Shown here: in pieces, positions 690 to 12,868 of the stretch | Position numbering within the stretch: position 1 is the stretch's first letter | How the letters are laid out: each line of letters begins with the position of its first letter | From: Candidatus Zhuqueibacterota bacterium | GTDB lineage: Bacteria; SM23-31 | NCBI GenBank assembly: GCA_022562855.1 | Contig: JADFON010000002.1 | Span: 1 to 20,075 of the forward strand | Direction of reading: 5' to 3' | Length of the DNA stretch: 20,075 nucleotides | Notes under the pieces: generated by a model | Seen by the model: only the letters and a program-made list of their open reading frames with translations | What the model was told of the DNA's origin: nothing | Databases searched by the model: none | Translations under genes and position numbers: made by a program

Positions 690-1273
690 AAGCCGTGATA
701 GATACTAACGGAATGACCGGGTAATACCGATAATTTATAATGCAGGATACGGAATGATTTACAGGTATAAATAATAGCCTTGATGGTAACGGAATCGACA
801 GATAATGCGATATAGTATTTGACAAGGACATTCTTGCTGAATTGTTGCAAAGAAAAGAAGACATTGTGCTCTGTGTTGACCGGAATTCCGGCGATGAAGA
901 AGCAGAAAAAGTGGTTGTTAAAGACGGACTATTGTCGTTATCCAAGAAATATGAAGACCTGCCTACTCCCAAGCACAAGTGTATTCCGACTGAGGAGGCG
1001 TACGGTGAATTTATCGGGTTAGCCAAATTCTCACGATATGGAAGTATACAATTGATAAAGGAGATGGATCGGATAATGCACAAGTATGATTTCAAATCAT
1101 ATTTAGTCTACGCGTTCGAACAGTTGGCAAAAAAAGGTTTTCCCTGTCATGTGCTTGATATTGGAGACAGAATGTGGAACGACAATGACAACATAGAAGA
1201 TATACACAGGACAAGGGATATAATTTTCCCAAAAATTAAAATAAATGAAAAAAATGGCGGTAAAAGCTTGTAA
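686..1273 (+). pseudogene. decayed sugar/choline-phosphate nucleotidyltransferase
   Basis: This is the remnant of a nucleotidyltransferase of the NTP_transferase fold (CTP:phosphocholine or sugar-phosphate type). One frame carries family landmarks from end to end. VKAVI..NGM at 686-715 matches the usual start MKAVILAAGMG, and CDIVFDKDIL near 806-835 matches the metal-binding GD-x-VFD block. GEFIGLAKFS near 1004 and WNDNDNIEDI near 1172 are typical C-terminal motifs. The same frame holds four stops (722, 731, 755, 803). The distance between the first two motifs is far too short, pointing to an internal deletion of perhaps 50 or more codons, and the ATG appears mutated to GTA. A 143-codon open stretch from TTG 842 survives but lacks the substrate-binding N-terminus. 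It overlaps the sat stop and stands before the RmlC-like gene, so it was probably once part of that operon. Confidence 0.8.
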
Positions 1274-1342
1274 GAGTTTGGTGAATGATATTATATTGAT
1301 GTTATATAGTATTGATGATTGAACAACTTGCAGGAAATTTCA

Positions 1343-1804
1343 ATGGATATTATCGAAGGTGTACGGATTAAACAATTAAAGGTCATTCCCGACGAACGCG
1401 GTCGATTAATGGAAACCTTGCGGGATGATGACGACTTGTTTATCAAATTTGGACAGGCATATCTGACTACAGCCTATCCGGGTGTGGTAAAAGCGTGGCA
1501 TTATCATAAAAAGCAAATTGACAATTTTGTATGTGTGACGGGCATGATAAAACTTGTGTTGTATGATAACCGGGAAAATTCTTCGACAAAAGGCGCTGTC
1601 AACGAATTCTTTATGGGGTCTCACAATGCGATATTAGTAAGGATTCCTGAAGAAGTATTTCATGGATTCAAGTGTATCAGTGACACTGAAGCGATAGTCT
1701 TGAACATACCGACCGAACATTATAATTACGATAATCCGGATGAGTTCCGTCTAAGTCCTGATGACAAAAGTATACCGTACGACTGGTCGAGAAAAGACGG
1801 ATAA
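1343..1804 (+). CDS. RmlC-like cupin: dTDP-4-dehydrorhamnose 3,5-epimerase family
   Basis: A 153-residue cupin of the RmlC family, which epimerises 4-keto-6-deoxy nucleotide sugars for surface polysaccharide. The ATG at 1343 is preferred over the in-frame TTG at 1319 because AGGAAA lies about 6 bases before it and the protein then begins like short RmlC homologues (MDIIEGVRIKQLKVIPDERG). Landmarks are WHYHKKQ (His53, the expected catalytic base, and His55), HGF (His107) and the C-terminal NPDEFRLSPDD...YDW. Classical RmlC has about 180 residues and a Gln-x-Lys-Leu-Val segment after the histidine; here that segment is IDNFV, so the usual active-site lysine is missing. It may therefore be a short epimerase/isomerase variant acting on another keto sugar. 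The dehydratase of the same pathway type follows after a repeat-containing gap. Confidence 0.85.
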   Translation: MDIIEGVRIKQLKVIPDERGRLMETLRDDDDLFIKFGQAYLTTAYPGVVKAWHYHKKQIDNFVCVTGMIKLVLYDNRENSSTKGAVNEFFMGSHNAILVRIPEEVFHGFKCISDTEAIVLNIPTEHYNYDNPDEFRLSPDDKSIPYDWSRKDG

Positions 1805-7684: not shown

Positions 7685-7925
7685 CTTCGCTTTGGAACAT
7701 CAGCGTAATATTAACCATATAATATCTGTAGTCTATAATAGTTAAGTATAGCGAGATTTACTATATTGAGCACAGACTAAGGCGCAATTCGTTTCCAATA
7801 TCGGTATTTCATTTGTGTACTCAGAAGCTGATTAGCGTCACAGCGGCTTATTTTTAATTGAATGCATTATAATTAAAGTTGTATGTATAATTGAGCTGTA
7901 AAGATTGCAGCGGCTGGAGTTGAAC

Positions 7926-8492
7926 TTGACCGTTGATGAGCGGGAACTGATAGAAAAAGCGAAAAACGGCGACAGGAAAGCATTTGACCGAATAACGGAA
8001 ATGTATCTTGATAAGGCTTTTTCTATTGCTTTCCGGTATACCGGTAATGAGATTGACACCCGGGATATTGTCCAGGAAGCATTTTACAAAGTCTATGTCA
8101 ATCTTCACAGGTACGATGCGAAGTATCCATTTTCAGCCTGGTTTTTTCGAATATTAATAAACAGCAGTATTAATTTTTCGAAACGTCAAAGGCGGAAACG
8201 GTTTCTTTTTCAGGAAGGAAATCCAAAATCGGATGTTAACCCGATTGAAAAAAGTCCTGATGTTGAAAGTAATCCTGAAAAAGAATTTATAAATAACGAA
8301 ATAAAAGATCTCATTTCGAAAGGGTTAATGTCCCTCCCCGAGAAGCAGAGATCGGCAATAGTACTTTTCGATTTGGAGGGGTTTTCCCAGATAGAAGTAG
8401 CAGAAATATTAAAATGCCCGCAGGGTTCGGTGATGTCCCGGCTCTTTTACGGTAGAAGAAAGCTAAAAATTTTTTTAGAAAAATATCTGTAA
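7926..8492 (+). CDS. ECF-type RNA polymerase sigma factor
   Basis: A 188-residue extracytoplasmic-function sigma-70 factor with regions 2 and 4 only. Region 2 has RKAFDRITEMYLDKAFSIAF, then DIVQEAFYKVYVNLHRYD and SAWFFRILIN. Region 4 has LPEKQRSAIVLFDLEGFSQI followed by the helix-turn-helix VAEILKCPQGSVMSRLFYGR. The linker (about residues 95-125) is charged. I chose TTG at 7926 because GGAG lies 6 bases upstream at 7916-7919; TTG at 7905 in the same frame would add seven residues but has a poorer ribosome site. The next two genes encode a zinc-finger membrane anti-sigma and an RseB-like protein, as in sigma-E/AlgU operons, so this factor very probably governs an envelope-stress regulon and its own operon. 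I did not find a convincing ECF-type -35/-10 pair upstream. Confidence 0.93.
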   Translation: MTVDERELIEKAKNGDRKAFDRITEMYLDKAFSIAFRYTGNEIDTRDIVQEAFYKVYVNLHRYDAKYPFSAWFFRILINSSINFSKRQRRKRFLFQEGNPKSDVNPIEKSPDVESNPEKEFINNEIKDLISKGLMSLPEKQRSAIVLFDLEGFSQIEVAEILKCPQGSVMSRLFYGRRKLKIFLEKYL

Positions 8493-8560
8493 ATTAAATA
8501 GATTCTTATTTGTATTGTATATAGTACCTGAATGGAAAATTCCATGAGGAGAAGAAGACT

Positions 8561-9082
8561 ATGAAATGTGAAAAGGCGCTTAAAAAAACGTCTTCCGATA
8601 GGATTTCCGTACTGTCCAAAAAAATAATAGATGAACATATTGCCGGCTGTTCCTATTGTCAGGGACAAATCGCCTCTTCCGACAAGGTCGCTTTGCTGTT
8701 GGCAAATCAGAAGGATGACAGCCTTAAACCAGGTAAACGGTCGTCACTATTAACAAACATTCGTGTATACCGTGATAAAAAACGGAAAAGTATTCTTCAC
8801 AGGTTGGCAGGATTAATGCCTCTTGAGCCGGCGGCAAAAGGTCTTACGATCGCAGGCGTATCGTTTGCAGTTTTGATAGGTGCATATTTGTTTTCAAGCG
8901 ATATGCAACTCAGCAACTCAGCACGATTAGCGAATGAAGGAGCGGACGACGCCGATTTCTTTATTCAAGAACACGCACTTACCCAGGACAGCGGGTTATT
9001 CGGTCACGGGTCGTTTTCTCAGACATTCATGGGTCTCAGCGCACAACAAAATAAGTATAAATTTCCCAATTACAAAAATTGA
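8561..9082 (+). CDS. membrane anti-sigma factor with zinc-finger (ZAS-type) motif
   Basis: A 173-residue protein with an N-terminal cytosolic zinc-binding anti-sigma domain and one membrane span. Cys3 and the H-x3-C-x2-C motif (His26, Cys30, Cys33, in DEHIAGCSYC) are the ligands typical of ZAS-domain anti-sigma factors. A basic stretch near 70-82 precedes a hydrophobic helix at about 93-111 (GLTIAGVSFAVLIGAYLF), leaving a periplasmic tail of about 60 residues. It would hold the upstream ECF sigma factor at the membrane until regulated proteolysis or redox change releases it. The ATG at 8561 follows GGAGAAGAAG, a good ribosome site. It lies 68 bases after the sigma gene and immediately before the RseB-like gene. 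Overall similarity to a named family (RseA) cannot be judged by eye. Confidence 0.82.
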   Translation: MKCEKALKKTSSDRISVLSKKIIDEHIAGCSYCQGQIASSDKVALLLANQKDDSLKPGKRSSLLTNIRVYRDKKRKSILHRLAGLMPLEPAAKGLTIAGVSFAVLIGAYLFSSDMQLSNSARLANEGADDADFFIQEHALTQDSGLFGHGSFSQTFMGLSAQQNKYKFPNYKN

Positions 9083-9111
9083 TTGGGGGGTTTCCAACAA
9101 CTATACTAAAT

Positions 9112-10176
9112 ATGTTTGCTTTAATTAAATCCTATCGATCCCGGATATTATTGGCAGTTATTGCCGTGTCATTCGGGATTTTTTTACATTCAGAATCTTC
9201 AGCGCAAAGGAGAACTCCCGAAAGGCAAAAGCGAAAAGATGAACTGTTCAGAAAAATTGCCGCCGCCGAGGAATCTCTTTCTTACCAGGCTACGGTTATT
9301 ACGGAATATTTTGGCGAGGAAACAAGAAAATATGAGCGTGATGTAGTGAAGGTTGGCTCTAACAGAGAGTGGTCAAAGTCCAATAATAGGGTATTTGTGA
9401 TACGGGACAATCTATATTTTATAAAGTTCTTAGAAAATGACTCTGTGATTGTATATAACCGAAGATCGAGAGAAAGCATCATCGGAGATATAGAGTTATT
9501 AAAAAAGAACTATTCTGTTCGATTCTTACCTGAAGAGAAAATACAAGACCATCTTGTGGATGTTGTTCGAATCAGATTCAGATTGAGACATAAGGACCGG
9601 GCGTGGCTAAAAATCTGGGTTGACAAAGAGAACGGTTATGTTTTCAGAACAGAACATTATGACGCAGAGGACAAGAAATTTTTTTCCCGTCATAGTGAGG
9701 ATGTCAAGTTTGATCCTGAGATCGATCCTGAATTATTCGAAGTAGATTATACGGGCGCTTTGCCTGCTGTTCCAACCAGAAAATTATATGAGAGCGCTAC
9801 CGAGGTCAGAGACGATCTGAATATATCCTTAGTCGCTCCGGAGTTTCTGCCTCCCGGCTTTTCACTAAGTGAAATATCGGTAAGATACCGCGGTCACAAT
9901 AATAAGCCCTTCGTCCAGTTTTATTACTCGGATGGTCTTTGGTCGTTTTCGCTGTTTCAGGAAACTACTGAACGGGATAATAGAGATATGCGGCTTAGAA
10001 AACGTATGGGTGGGCTTTCTATAAGCGAAATAAAAAACAATTTACGTTATAGTTTCAATAGTGATATTGACCTCATTGCTGAAAAAACACTGGTAAAATC
10101 CTTTCAGACGATCAAACCGTTAAATGATCCAGGCCCTCATCAGGATGCGAAGGGGAATAAAAAACATATTAAATAA
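9112..10176 (+). CDS. RseB/MucB-like exported sigma-factor regulator
   Basis: A 354-residue exported protein. Residues 1-31 form a signal peptide (basic start, hydrophobic ILLAVIAVSFGIFL, cut after SSA). An N-terminal LolA/RseB-like beta domain spans about 40-205. A smaller C-terminal domain, about 240-345, holds LPPGFSL and YYSDGLWSFSLFQE, which match the RseB/MucB C-terminal landmark (LPxGF...YSDGL-S-SVF). In sigma-E systems such proteins bind the periplasmic part of the anti-sigma and protect it from proteolysis until they sense misfolded or misplaced lipid/protein. ATG 9112 gives a clean signal peptide. An in-frame TTG at 9079 overlaps the previous stop and could couple translation, but it would add an 11-residue lead. 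A strong hairpin terminator follows. Confidence 0.8.
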   Translation: MFALIKSYRSRILLAVIAVSFGIFLHSESSAQRRTPERQKRKDELFRKIAAAEESLSYQATVITEYFGEETRKYERDVVKVGSNREWSKSNNRVFVIRDNLYFIKFLENDSVIVYNRRSRESIIGDIELLKKNYSVRFLPEEKIQDHLVDVVRIRFRLRHKDRAWLKIWVDKENGYVFRTEHYDAEDKKFFSRHSEDVKFDPEIDPELFEVDYTGALPAVPTRKLYESATEVRDDLNISLVAPEFLPPGFSLSEISVRYRGHNNKPFVQFYYSDGLWSFSLFQETTERDNRDMRLRKRMGGLSISEIKNNLRYSFNSDIDLIAEKTLVKSFQTIKPLNDPGPHQDAKGNKKHIK

Positions 10177-10199: not shown

Positions 10200-10234
10200 A
10201 AAAAAAGCTGGCTAATCTTTAGCCCGCTTTTTTT
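10200..10234. terminator. hairpin terminator shared by convergent genes
   Basis: The 16-base arms 10200-10215 (A7-GCTGGCTAA) and 10219-10234 (TTAGCCCGC-T7) pair with one mismatch around a TCT loop. The A-run on one side and the T-run on the other make it work as a Rho-independent terminator in both directions. It lies between the RseB-like gene (plus) and the thioredoxin-fold gene (minus). Confidence 0.9.
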
Positions 10235-10248
10235 ATAGTAATAGAAAA

Positions 10249-11397
10249 TTATTTCTTTTTTCTCATTATTTCTCTCTGCCACTGCACGTCGATGTCGCCA
10301 TCGTAGAACTTTTCAGGGTTCTCAAGCGCCCAAATTTGTTTTCGTATGAGATAGTTATCCGGGTCAAACTCCAACGCTGAATGTAATTGAACCAATGCAT
10401 TCTCTTTCTCGTTATTTCCAAGTAATGACACAGCATCGTGAAATAACTCTTCCGCTTTCTTCGAAGCAAAACCGTTACCGGCATTCCGTTCAATATCGGC
10501 GTTTATTTCCATTGCATTTCTTGCAACAACCGAGTTTTCGCCGTTCTCGAACCAGTCTTCCAATTCCTCGATCAATTTTGGATTTGCAATATTAGCGCTT
10601 TGCGGACCGCGGACAAGCTTACCTGATTCATCAAAGAGCATGGTAAGAGGAACAAAATTATAACTAAAATACGATCCGAATTTGTTCTCGACGTCTACAA
10701 GGGCGGTATATTCGGCATTCGCTTTTTCTATCCATGGGCGGACTACATCAGGTCCCTGGATATCCATAGCGACGGTAACAAGTTCGAAACCGTCGTTCTT
10801 GTGTTTTGAATAGAATTCTTGCCACCCGGGCAATTGACCTCTGCATACTCACCAGGAAGCCCATGCAAAAACGACAACCTTTTTACCGGAGAAATCAGCC
10901 AGTGAAACGATATTTCCATTCAAATCGGAAAGTTCGATGTCTAAGGCTGCCGGGCTGTTCAAGTCTCCCTTTGGGTTAACTTTTTTGAATATTCCCGGCT
11001 CAGAAATATTCAATTCCAATGTCCGTTTGTCCATATCCCAATTAGCTTCGTCGCCAAGATGCATGATCAGGTCTACAACCGGTACAAAGTAGGTATCACC
11101 CTCCTTGAATGCCTGGTCCTTTTCCTTTCCAACGTAGACCGGGATACACAGGTCCTCCCGGCAGATACCTATCTGCCTTCCCTGCGGGTCTATCTCTTTA
11201 TACACAAGGTCAAGATGGGTTTCGAGAGCGGATATGGAAAGATATACAGTGTCATTTTGAATCCTGTAATCTTTTTGAGTGAGCGTTATGGCTGTGCCGT
11301 TAAGTGTAAACGACTCAACGGTGATAGATTCTTTCTGACCGCTGCACATAGAGCCGAATAAGCTGACAACACTGACTGCGAAAATTAATTTTTTCAT
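10249..11397 (-). CDS. exported thioredoxin-fold protein, candidate selenoprotein (in-frame TGA read as Sec183)
   Basis: Read through one TGA (10851-10849), this frame gives 382 residues. Residues 1-20 are a signal peptide, perhaps a lipoprotein signal with Cys18, though the lipobox is poor. Residues 25-130 resemble the copper-amine-oxidase-N-like 'stalk' domain (SFTLNGTAITLT, DTVYLSISALETHL). Residues 150-290 are a redoxin/TlpA domain (IELSDLNGNIVSLADFSGKK, then VVVFAWASW-U-VCRGQLPGW). The tail (about 315-382) looks like a single TPR plus a basic end. TGA replaces the first redox cysteine, giving U-x-C rather than C-x2-C; Cys185 is the partner. The frame stays open for 199 residues after TGA, which is hard to explain by chance. 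A strong GAGGAAA site precedes ATG 11397. The alternative is a nonsense-mutated gene or sequencing error. The cargo or partner is unknown; the role would be extracytoplasmic thiol/peroxide redox. Confidence 0.75.
10807..10851 (-). promoter_or_regulatory. candidate bacterial SECIS stem-loop next to the in-frame TGA
   Basis: In the minus-strand mRNA, TTGCC (10833-10829) pairs with GGCAA (10823-10819) around the loop CGGGT. The loop starts 20 bases after the TGA and has G at its second position. TGAGTA, including the TGA itself, can pair with TATTCA (10812-10807) to form a lower stem with one G-U pair. Spacing and a G in the first two loop bases fit the known bacterial SECIS rules. The upper stem is short, and I judged the fold by eye only. 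Confidence 0.45.
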
Positions 11398-11530: not shown

Positions 11531-12850
11531 TTAGATCTCTTTCAAGCTCAAAAATAGAATTTTCATCGCTTCGTCGATTTCGTCCTCAGGAATATTCAAT
11601 CTCGGTCTACACCTTATTGAAATATCACCGCATCCCATTATTATCATATTGTTTTTGTAAACCGCATCGACCAATTTGTTGCGTGTCTCTATATCAGGCA
11701 GATCAAAAGCGCATATCAGTCCTCTACCGCGTACATTTGATATCATATCGGGAAACTGCTTTCCGAGATTTGTCAGACCGGCAAGCAGATATATACCCAT
11801 TTTCTTAGCGTTTTCTACCAGGTTTTCTTCCTCGATGATTTCAAGATACCGTTCGAAACGGACCATATCGACGAGATTTCCACCGAACGTTGAATTGATC
11901 CGGCTCGAAACACGGAATACGTTTTCCGGAATTTCATGGATTTTGTCCGAAACGAACATTCCGCAAACCTGGGTCTTTTTGCCGAATGCGATCATATCCG
12001 GCTCCATATCGAAATACTCATAACACCACATTCTCCCCGTCAGCCCGATTCCGGTTTGCACTTCATCAAAAATGAGCATAATCTCGTTCTCGTCGCAAAT
12101 TGTGCGGAGCGCCTGGAAAAATTCCTTTCTAAAGTGGTGGTCGCCGCCCTCTGATTGGATAGGCTCGATAAGCACCGCAGCGATATCGTCCGGGTTATCG
12201 GATATTGCTTTCTTTATCGAATCTATACTCTCCCGTTCGAGTTTGCTTACGTTTTCTATAGATTCTTCCGAGAGGGGAAATGTTATTTTCGGATTATTTA
12301 TGCGGGGCCAGTCGAATTTAGGATAATAGTTGGTTTTTGCCGGGTCAGTATTGGTTAAAGAAAGTGTATAACCGGACCTGCCGTGAAACGCATCCTTAAA
12401 GTGAATAACCTGCTGTCCTTTTTCTTCTTTTATTCCCTTCTCAAAGTTCTTTCTGACTTTCCAGTCAAATGCAGCCTTCAGGCAGTTTTCAATTGCCAGT
12501 GTCCCCCCGGATACAAAGAACATATTGGGAAAATGTTTTGGCACTGCGATTCGGCTAAACGTATTTACGAATGACGCCATCTCTTCGGTGTATATATCAG
12601 AGTTTGAGGGTTTAATTACCGCCGACCTTAAGAGTTTGTCTAAAAACTGTTTGTCTTTCATTTTCGGATGATTAAAGCCGATAGGATTTGTAGCAAAGAA
12701 AGTAAAAAAATCGAGGTACTTTTTTTCATTCCTTGAATCGTAAAGATACCCTCCCTGGCTTTTATCAAAGTCGAACACAAGGTCATAACCGTCTGCTAAA
12801 ATACTTTTTGACAAAACATCGTGGACATTTTTCGAAGAAACATTAGACAT
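11531..12850 (-). CDS. lat: L-lysine 6-aminotransferase (class III, PLP)
   Basis: A 439-residue class III aminotransferase of the lysine epsilon-transaminase type, which moves the epsilon amino group of L-lysine to 2-oxoglutarate, giving 2-aminoadipate 6-semialdehyde. The cofactor loop VSGGTLAIENCLKAA (about 113-127), FHGRSGYTLSLTN (155-167), the PLP-ring aspartate in LIFDEVQTGIG (Asp262) and the Schiff-base motif AFGKKTQVCG (Lys291/292) are all there; FGKKTQVCG and STFGGNLVDMVR are characteristic of LAT rather than ornithine or GABA enzymes. ATG 12850 follows AGGAGGCGGT, a strong ribosome site; an upstream in-frame TTG at 12868 would include the ribosome site and is rejected. It is monocistronic or leads into the 134-base gap before the thioredoxin-fold gene. 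No semialdehyde dehydrogenase is nearby, so lysine catabolism is likely but not shown. Confidence 0.92.
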   Translation of the reverse strand: MSNVSSKNVHDVLSKSILADGYDLVFDFDKSQGGYLYDSRNEKKYLDFFTFFATNPIGFNHPKMKDKQFLDKLLRSAVIKPSNSDIYTEEMASFVNTFSRIAVPKHFPNMFFVSGGTLAIENCLKAAFDWKVRKNFEKGIKEEKGQQVIHFKDAFHGRSGYTLSLTNTDPAKTNYYPKFDWPRINNPKITFPLSEESIENVSKLERESIDSIKKAISDNPDDIAAVLIEPIQSEGGDHHFRKEFFQALRTICDENEIMLIFDEVQTGIGLTGRMWCYEYFDMEPDMIAFGKKTQVCGMFVSDKIHEIPENVFRVSSRINSTFGGNLVDMVRFERYLEIIEEENLVENAKKMGIYLLAGLTNLGKQFPDMISNVRGRGLICAFDLPDIETRNKLVDAVYKNNMIIMGCGDISIRCRPRLNIPEDEIDEAMKILFLSLKEI

Positions 12851-12868
12851 ACCGCCTCCTGAGCGCAA

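Follow-up and report, generated by a model that had tools for sequence, protein, structure and literature searches.

A predicted U-x-C selenoprotein of a Zhuqueibacterota bacterium, representing an apparently exported branch of the UGC-containing TlpA/ResA-like proteins

The window analysed here, a stretch of 20,075 nucleotides of contig JADFON010000002.1 (Candidatus Zhuqueibacterota bacterium, assembly GCA_022562855.1), carries on its minus strand a frame of 383 codons that runs from an ATG at 11397 to a terminal TAA ending at 10249. Its only internal stop is a TGA at codon 183 (10851-10849), preceded by 182 residues and followed by 199, in the context FAWASW*VCRGQLPGWQ. A frame of this length with a single TGA at W-A-S-W-U-V-C-R was the starting point of the original prediction, which is borne out; the strand, which had been left unstated, is the minus strand, and the plus strand of the same interval contains many stops. 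The features of the locus are:

10249..11397, minus strand: predicted selenoprotein gene, 382 residues plus TAA, open throughout except at TGA 183
11335..11397, minus strand: signal peptide-like start, residues 1-21, hydrophobic (MKKLIFAVSVVSLFGSMCSG, read directly from the translation)
10993..11334, minus strand: stalk-like N-terminal domain, residues about 22-135 (PF07833, 22.6 bits), mostly beta in the structural model
11146..11163, minus strand: conserved cysteine pair C79-x4-C84-I-P; 44 of the 45 family proteins have such a pair
10582..10962, minus strand: redoxin domain with U183-V-C185, residues 146-272 (NF041054, PF00578, PF08534; ResA 1su9 by Foldseek)
10849..10851, minus strand: TGA codon 183, putatively read as selenocysteine (TGA in 28/28 Poribacteria loci and 83/83 aligned family sequences)
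10819..10833, minus strand: SECIS-like hairpin UUGCC-CGGGU-GGCAA with a 5-bp stem, beginning 15 nt after the UGA
10252..10524, minus strand: TPR-like tail, residues 292-382, helical in the model and ending in a conserved KQIWAxExPxKFYDG block
10210..10224, no strand assigned: terminator-like inverted repeat with T tracts on both strands, common to the selenoprotein gene and the convergent RseB-like gene

The N-terminal half of the protein scores below the gathering cut-off of PF07833, the copper amine oxidase N-terminal domain (22.6 versus 24.2 bits), and a stand-alone stalk-like relative in genome G002, which belongs to the same family as the window's genome, scores 28.3 bits. The sole family protein of the 45 that lacks the N-terminal cysteine pair is truncated. 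When the halves on either side of the TGA were searched separately, they gave only sub-threshold AhpC-TSA/Redoxin matches, both stopping at the TGA; the joined translation matches PF00578 (AhpC-TSA) with 57.7 bits over residues 151-261. ResA-type structures top the fold search with the redoxin part, ResA 1su9 being found at an E value of 3e-11. The TPR-like tail is further indicated by TPR_2 matches in relatives and by a second stretch of similarity to NF041054 at 10267-10569. Homology to Poribacteria proteins, at 31-36% identity, extends over the whole length of the protein. The AlphaFold model (mean pLDDT 69.5, pTM 0.46) has a low-confidence linker at residues 132-148, and its placement of the domains is not usable. 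A promoter scan gave no more matches than expected by chance.

On the plus strand at 7905-10176, an ECF sigma factor, a probable anti-sigma factor and an RseB-like protein are encoded in a row that adjoins the selenoprotein gene and keeps its order in G002, and a link to envelope stress is possible. The selenoprotein gene is preceded on its own strand (11531-12868) by an L-lysine 6-transaminase gene (TIGR03251, 661 bits, above cut-off), of which none was seen at the equivalent position in G002. There, the gene between the RseB-like and LptF-like genes is a 147-codon frame for the stalk-like domain only, convergent with the RseB-like gene as the selenoprotein gene is in the window. To judge from these two arrangements, either G002 has lost the redoxin and TPR parts at this site or the lineage of the window has acquired them. 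Stand-alone stalk-like proteins of about 146 residues are encoded by L051 (G002:C196, about 1246-1686, plus strand) and L052 (G004:C40, minus strand), both from the same class as the window; they carry the same C-x4-C-I-P pair, and may either work with a redoxin in trans or be what is left of a protein that has lost its selenocysteine part. Elsewhere in the window (690-1273, plus strand), a frame of 143 residues at 842-1273 matches nothing in Pfam or NCBIfam and is preceded by several in-frame stops; on visual inspection it looks like the end of a nucleotidyltransferase, and it may belong to a decayed or misassembled gene.

The original prediction read the TGA as selenocysteine and proposed a search for the genes of selenocysteine synthesis and insertion, all of which are present in the window's genome (2.5 Mb, 80% complete). 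The genes selA and selB lie side by side on one contig, a tRNA-Sec(UCA) with anticodon TCA is encoded, and selD (L081, G000:C359:11403-12329) has an in-frame TGA of its own in the motif ECAGUASK. SelD is thus probably a selenoprotein too, and its TGA makes at least one other selenoprotein likely in this genome. Among five phylum mates tested, selA was found in all and selB above cut-off in four.

It had also been proposed that homologues be checked for cysteine or TGA at codon 183, and TGA was found throughout, with TGC or TGT met in none of the relatives. Poribacteria loci were collected by scanning species genomes with two peptide patterns, of which GQL[PS]GWQ[EK] is blind to codon 183; all 28 loci that align through the codon on both sides have TGA, which excludes a chance origin of the codon. 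One Poribacteria copy (L110, JAAXHO010000261.1) shifts frame beyond residue 235 or so and then runs into a stop, either through a frameshift or through an assembly error; the other Poribacteria copies are intact. Wider searches added L113, from a genome of another group (G189), together with some 50 NF041054-related loci; the corresponding codon is TGA in all of these too. A search of viral contigs recovered no relatives. In the resulting family alignment of 83 sequences (82 distinct loci, since L112 and L169 are one), the U-x-C spacing is invariant and the middle residue is G, A or V: the motif is UGC in 74 sequences, UAC in eight, and UVC in the window only.

The hairpin has the form expected of a bacterial SECIS element, lying just downstream of the UGA with a G early in its apical loop, and a 5-bp hairpin occupies the same place at the same spacing in all 83 aligned sequences. 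Folding energy does not distinguish the window's hairpin, which taken alone folds no better than shuffled sequences. An Rfam search of the window gave no match, and a search of the genome with Rfam SECIS_1 gave none either but is uninformative, the controls having been equally negative. The stem is partly fixed by the conserved residues L-[PS]-[GV]-W-Q, so that only synonymous positions are informative. At these positions, Leu189 is CTG in 27/27 full-length Poribacteria genes, in which CTG makes up 0-19% of the other leucine codons, and all 27 use CAG for Gln193. The chance of a pairing Leu/Gln choice, calculated from each gene's own codon usage, averages 0.23 in Poribacteria, and the sequences, being related, amount to fewer independent observations than their number suggests. 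In the window and L113 the two codons are TTG and CAA, so that two synonymous changes have converted the outer pair from C-G (CTG/CAG) to U-A (TTG/CAA). Such a two-sided silent change is predicted by selection on the RNA and not by selection on the protein, and is clean evidence at the sequence level that the hairpin functions as a SECIS element. Taken over all the relatives, the case for the hairpin is strong.

The presence of the selenocysteine machinery, the retention of TGA in relatives and the synonymous constraint on the hairpin strongly support the selenocysteine reading, and the gene very probably encodes a selenoprotein with selenocysteine at UGA 183. The alternative that an ordinary cysteine redoxin gene has suffered a nonsense mutation or a sequencing error might be suggested by the lone internal stop, as the window's own TGA comes from a single draft metagenome assembly, and by the corresponding gene of G002, which has no redoxin part. 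A pseudogene or artefact of this kind is, however, extremely improbable: the same codon is TGA in all relatives from several phyla, on which ground this explanation was rejected, the remaining frame is intact and conserved for 199 residues, and machinery and hairpin are both in place.

For the gene product, we infer from these features that SelB and Sec-tRNA(UCA), recruited by the hairpin just 3' of the codon, would read UGA 183 as selenocysteine in the cell. The mature protein, once exported, would be a ResA/TlpA-like redoxin with a U-x-C site, placed between a stalk-like domain bearing a cysteine pair and a TPR-like tail. In thioredoxin-fold oxidoreductases, the residue at the first motif position attacks and that at the second resolves. 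By analogy, Sec183 would attack a disulfide or an oxidised thiol of the substrate, and Cys185 would resolve the mixed selenenylsulfide. A role as an extracytoplasmic thiol:disulfide oxidoreductase is reasonably probable.

The invariance of the U-x-C spacing in 83/83 sequences, with a middle residue that varies among G, A and V, would also suit a disulfide isomerase, in which the short ring forms an easily reduced, unstable selenenylsulfide and disulfides are shuffled without net reduction; thioredoxin acquires isomerase activity when its motif is changed to CGC. Proteins of the NF041054 branch, however, have no signal-like segment and would not act where disulfides usually form, and isomerase activity seems unlikely. 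A selenium-dependent, peroxiredoxin-like peroxidase, in which Sec183 would react with peroxide and Cys185 would resolve, is somewhat less likely still. It is suggested by the best Pfam match, PF00578 AhpC-TSA, and by the name 'Prx-like (UGC-containing)' given in a published table (PMC2398784), but the motif stands at the position of the WAxxCxxC motif of TlpA/ResA, ResA-type structures lead the fold search, and the PxxxTxxC/U signature described for peroxiredoxin (Prx, PMC13188914) is not seen around the U. Under the oxidoreductase reading, an electron relay between Cys79/Cys84 and the U-x-C site is a guess. The broader proposal, of an intramolecular selenium relay between the cysteine pair of the stalk and the U-x-C site of an exported enzyme, possibly a selenocysteine-based disulfide isomerase, throughout Poribacteria and at least two other uncultured bacterial groups, is doubtful. 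The N-terminal pair, near-universal and present also in the stand-alone proteins of related genomes, suggests a way of recharging the enzyme that can be put to the test.

The best named family for the protein is NCBIfam NF041054, 'ResA-like WAxxUGC motif-containing protein' (WAxxUGC_long). The window's protein scores 159.8 bits against a whole-protein cut-off of 300 bits, and does not contain the WAxxUGC motif, having WASWUVC with Val for Gly; Poribacteria proteins score 142-164 bits, and the proteins above the cut-off come from the phylum of G089. In a tree of redoxin domains, the UxC proteins group in a single clade (100/99) distinct from the CxxC redoxins, with NF041054 proteins as one branch (99/98) and Poribacteria, L113 and the window as another (98/92), in which the exact place of the window and L113 is unsure because both are long branches. 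Redoxins that otherwise look like ordinary TlpA/ResA proteins also have TGA at the first motif position in L024 (G036, WATWUPSC), L053 (G037, WATWUPTC), L055 (G053, WATWUPYC) and L061 (G011, WGDWUGPC), which are probable UxxC selenoproteins to judge from these motifs.

Comparison with NF041054 limits the novelty of the protein. Both have a redoxin with TGA at the same codon, the U-x-C arrangement, a TPR-like tail, an N-terminal cysteine pair (mostly followed by [VI]-P) and a hairpin at the same distance. They differ in that the window has UVC rather than UGC, a longer N-terminal domain and a separate place in the tree, and in that its protein starts with a signal peptide-like segment, which NF041054 proteins do not. 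The U-x-C spacing, stalk-like fusion and TPR tail, which the original prediction took to be unusual, are therefore family-wide; the idea of an unusual domain fusion was rejected because the same layout is found in NF041054 proteins, in L113 and in Poribacteria, and the window's protein appears to be set apart only by its UVC triplet and, relative to NF041054, by its export signal. The further claim of a new selenoprotein stands at the level of a subfamily and fails beyond it, since NF041054 names the nearest relatives and the UGC-containing kind has been listed since 2008 (PMC2398784): this is neither a wholly new selenoprotein nor a new kind of system. What is new is a subfamily that is apparently exported, tolerates UVC and UAC, scores below the cut-off of the named family and occurs in Poribacteria and in other groups of uncultured bacteria. 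This adds an exported branch to a selenoprotein family that has a name but seems not to have been studied; by falling below the database cut-off, the branch is at risk of being annotated as two broken fragments. All of the Poribacteria loci recovered have TGA, so these sponge symbionts may in general use selenium outside the cytoplasm.

In the literature searched, no paper was found that uses the name WAxxUGC or NF041054, and Poribacteria and selenocysteine occur together in two papers, in both of them outside the title and abstract. Selenoproteins of this kind are listed under three names: the Global Ocean Sampling survey of 2008 (PMC2398784) has 'Prx-like (UGC-containing)', a review of 2022 (PMC9312934) has 'UGC-containing Prx-like protein', and one of 2026 (PMC13188914) has 'UGC-containing TlpA disulfide reductase family protein'. 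The tables of these three sources give no account of the N-terminal cysteine pair or the TPR tail; as listed there, the proteins resemble that of the window in having a PF00578/TlpA-like redoxin with selenocysteine one residue before the second cysteine, and differ in that the window has UVC. The window's protein is best regarded as a putative divergent, apparently exported branch of these UGC-containing TlpA/ResA-like selenoproteins. With the thiol:disulfide oxidoreductases ResA and TlpA themselves it has in common the redoxin fold (1su9, ResA) and the WAxW motif, whereas ResA and TlpA have C-x-x-C in place of U-x-C, possess neither the stalk-like nor the TPR-like part, and belong to a separate clade.
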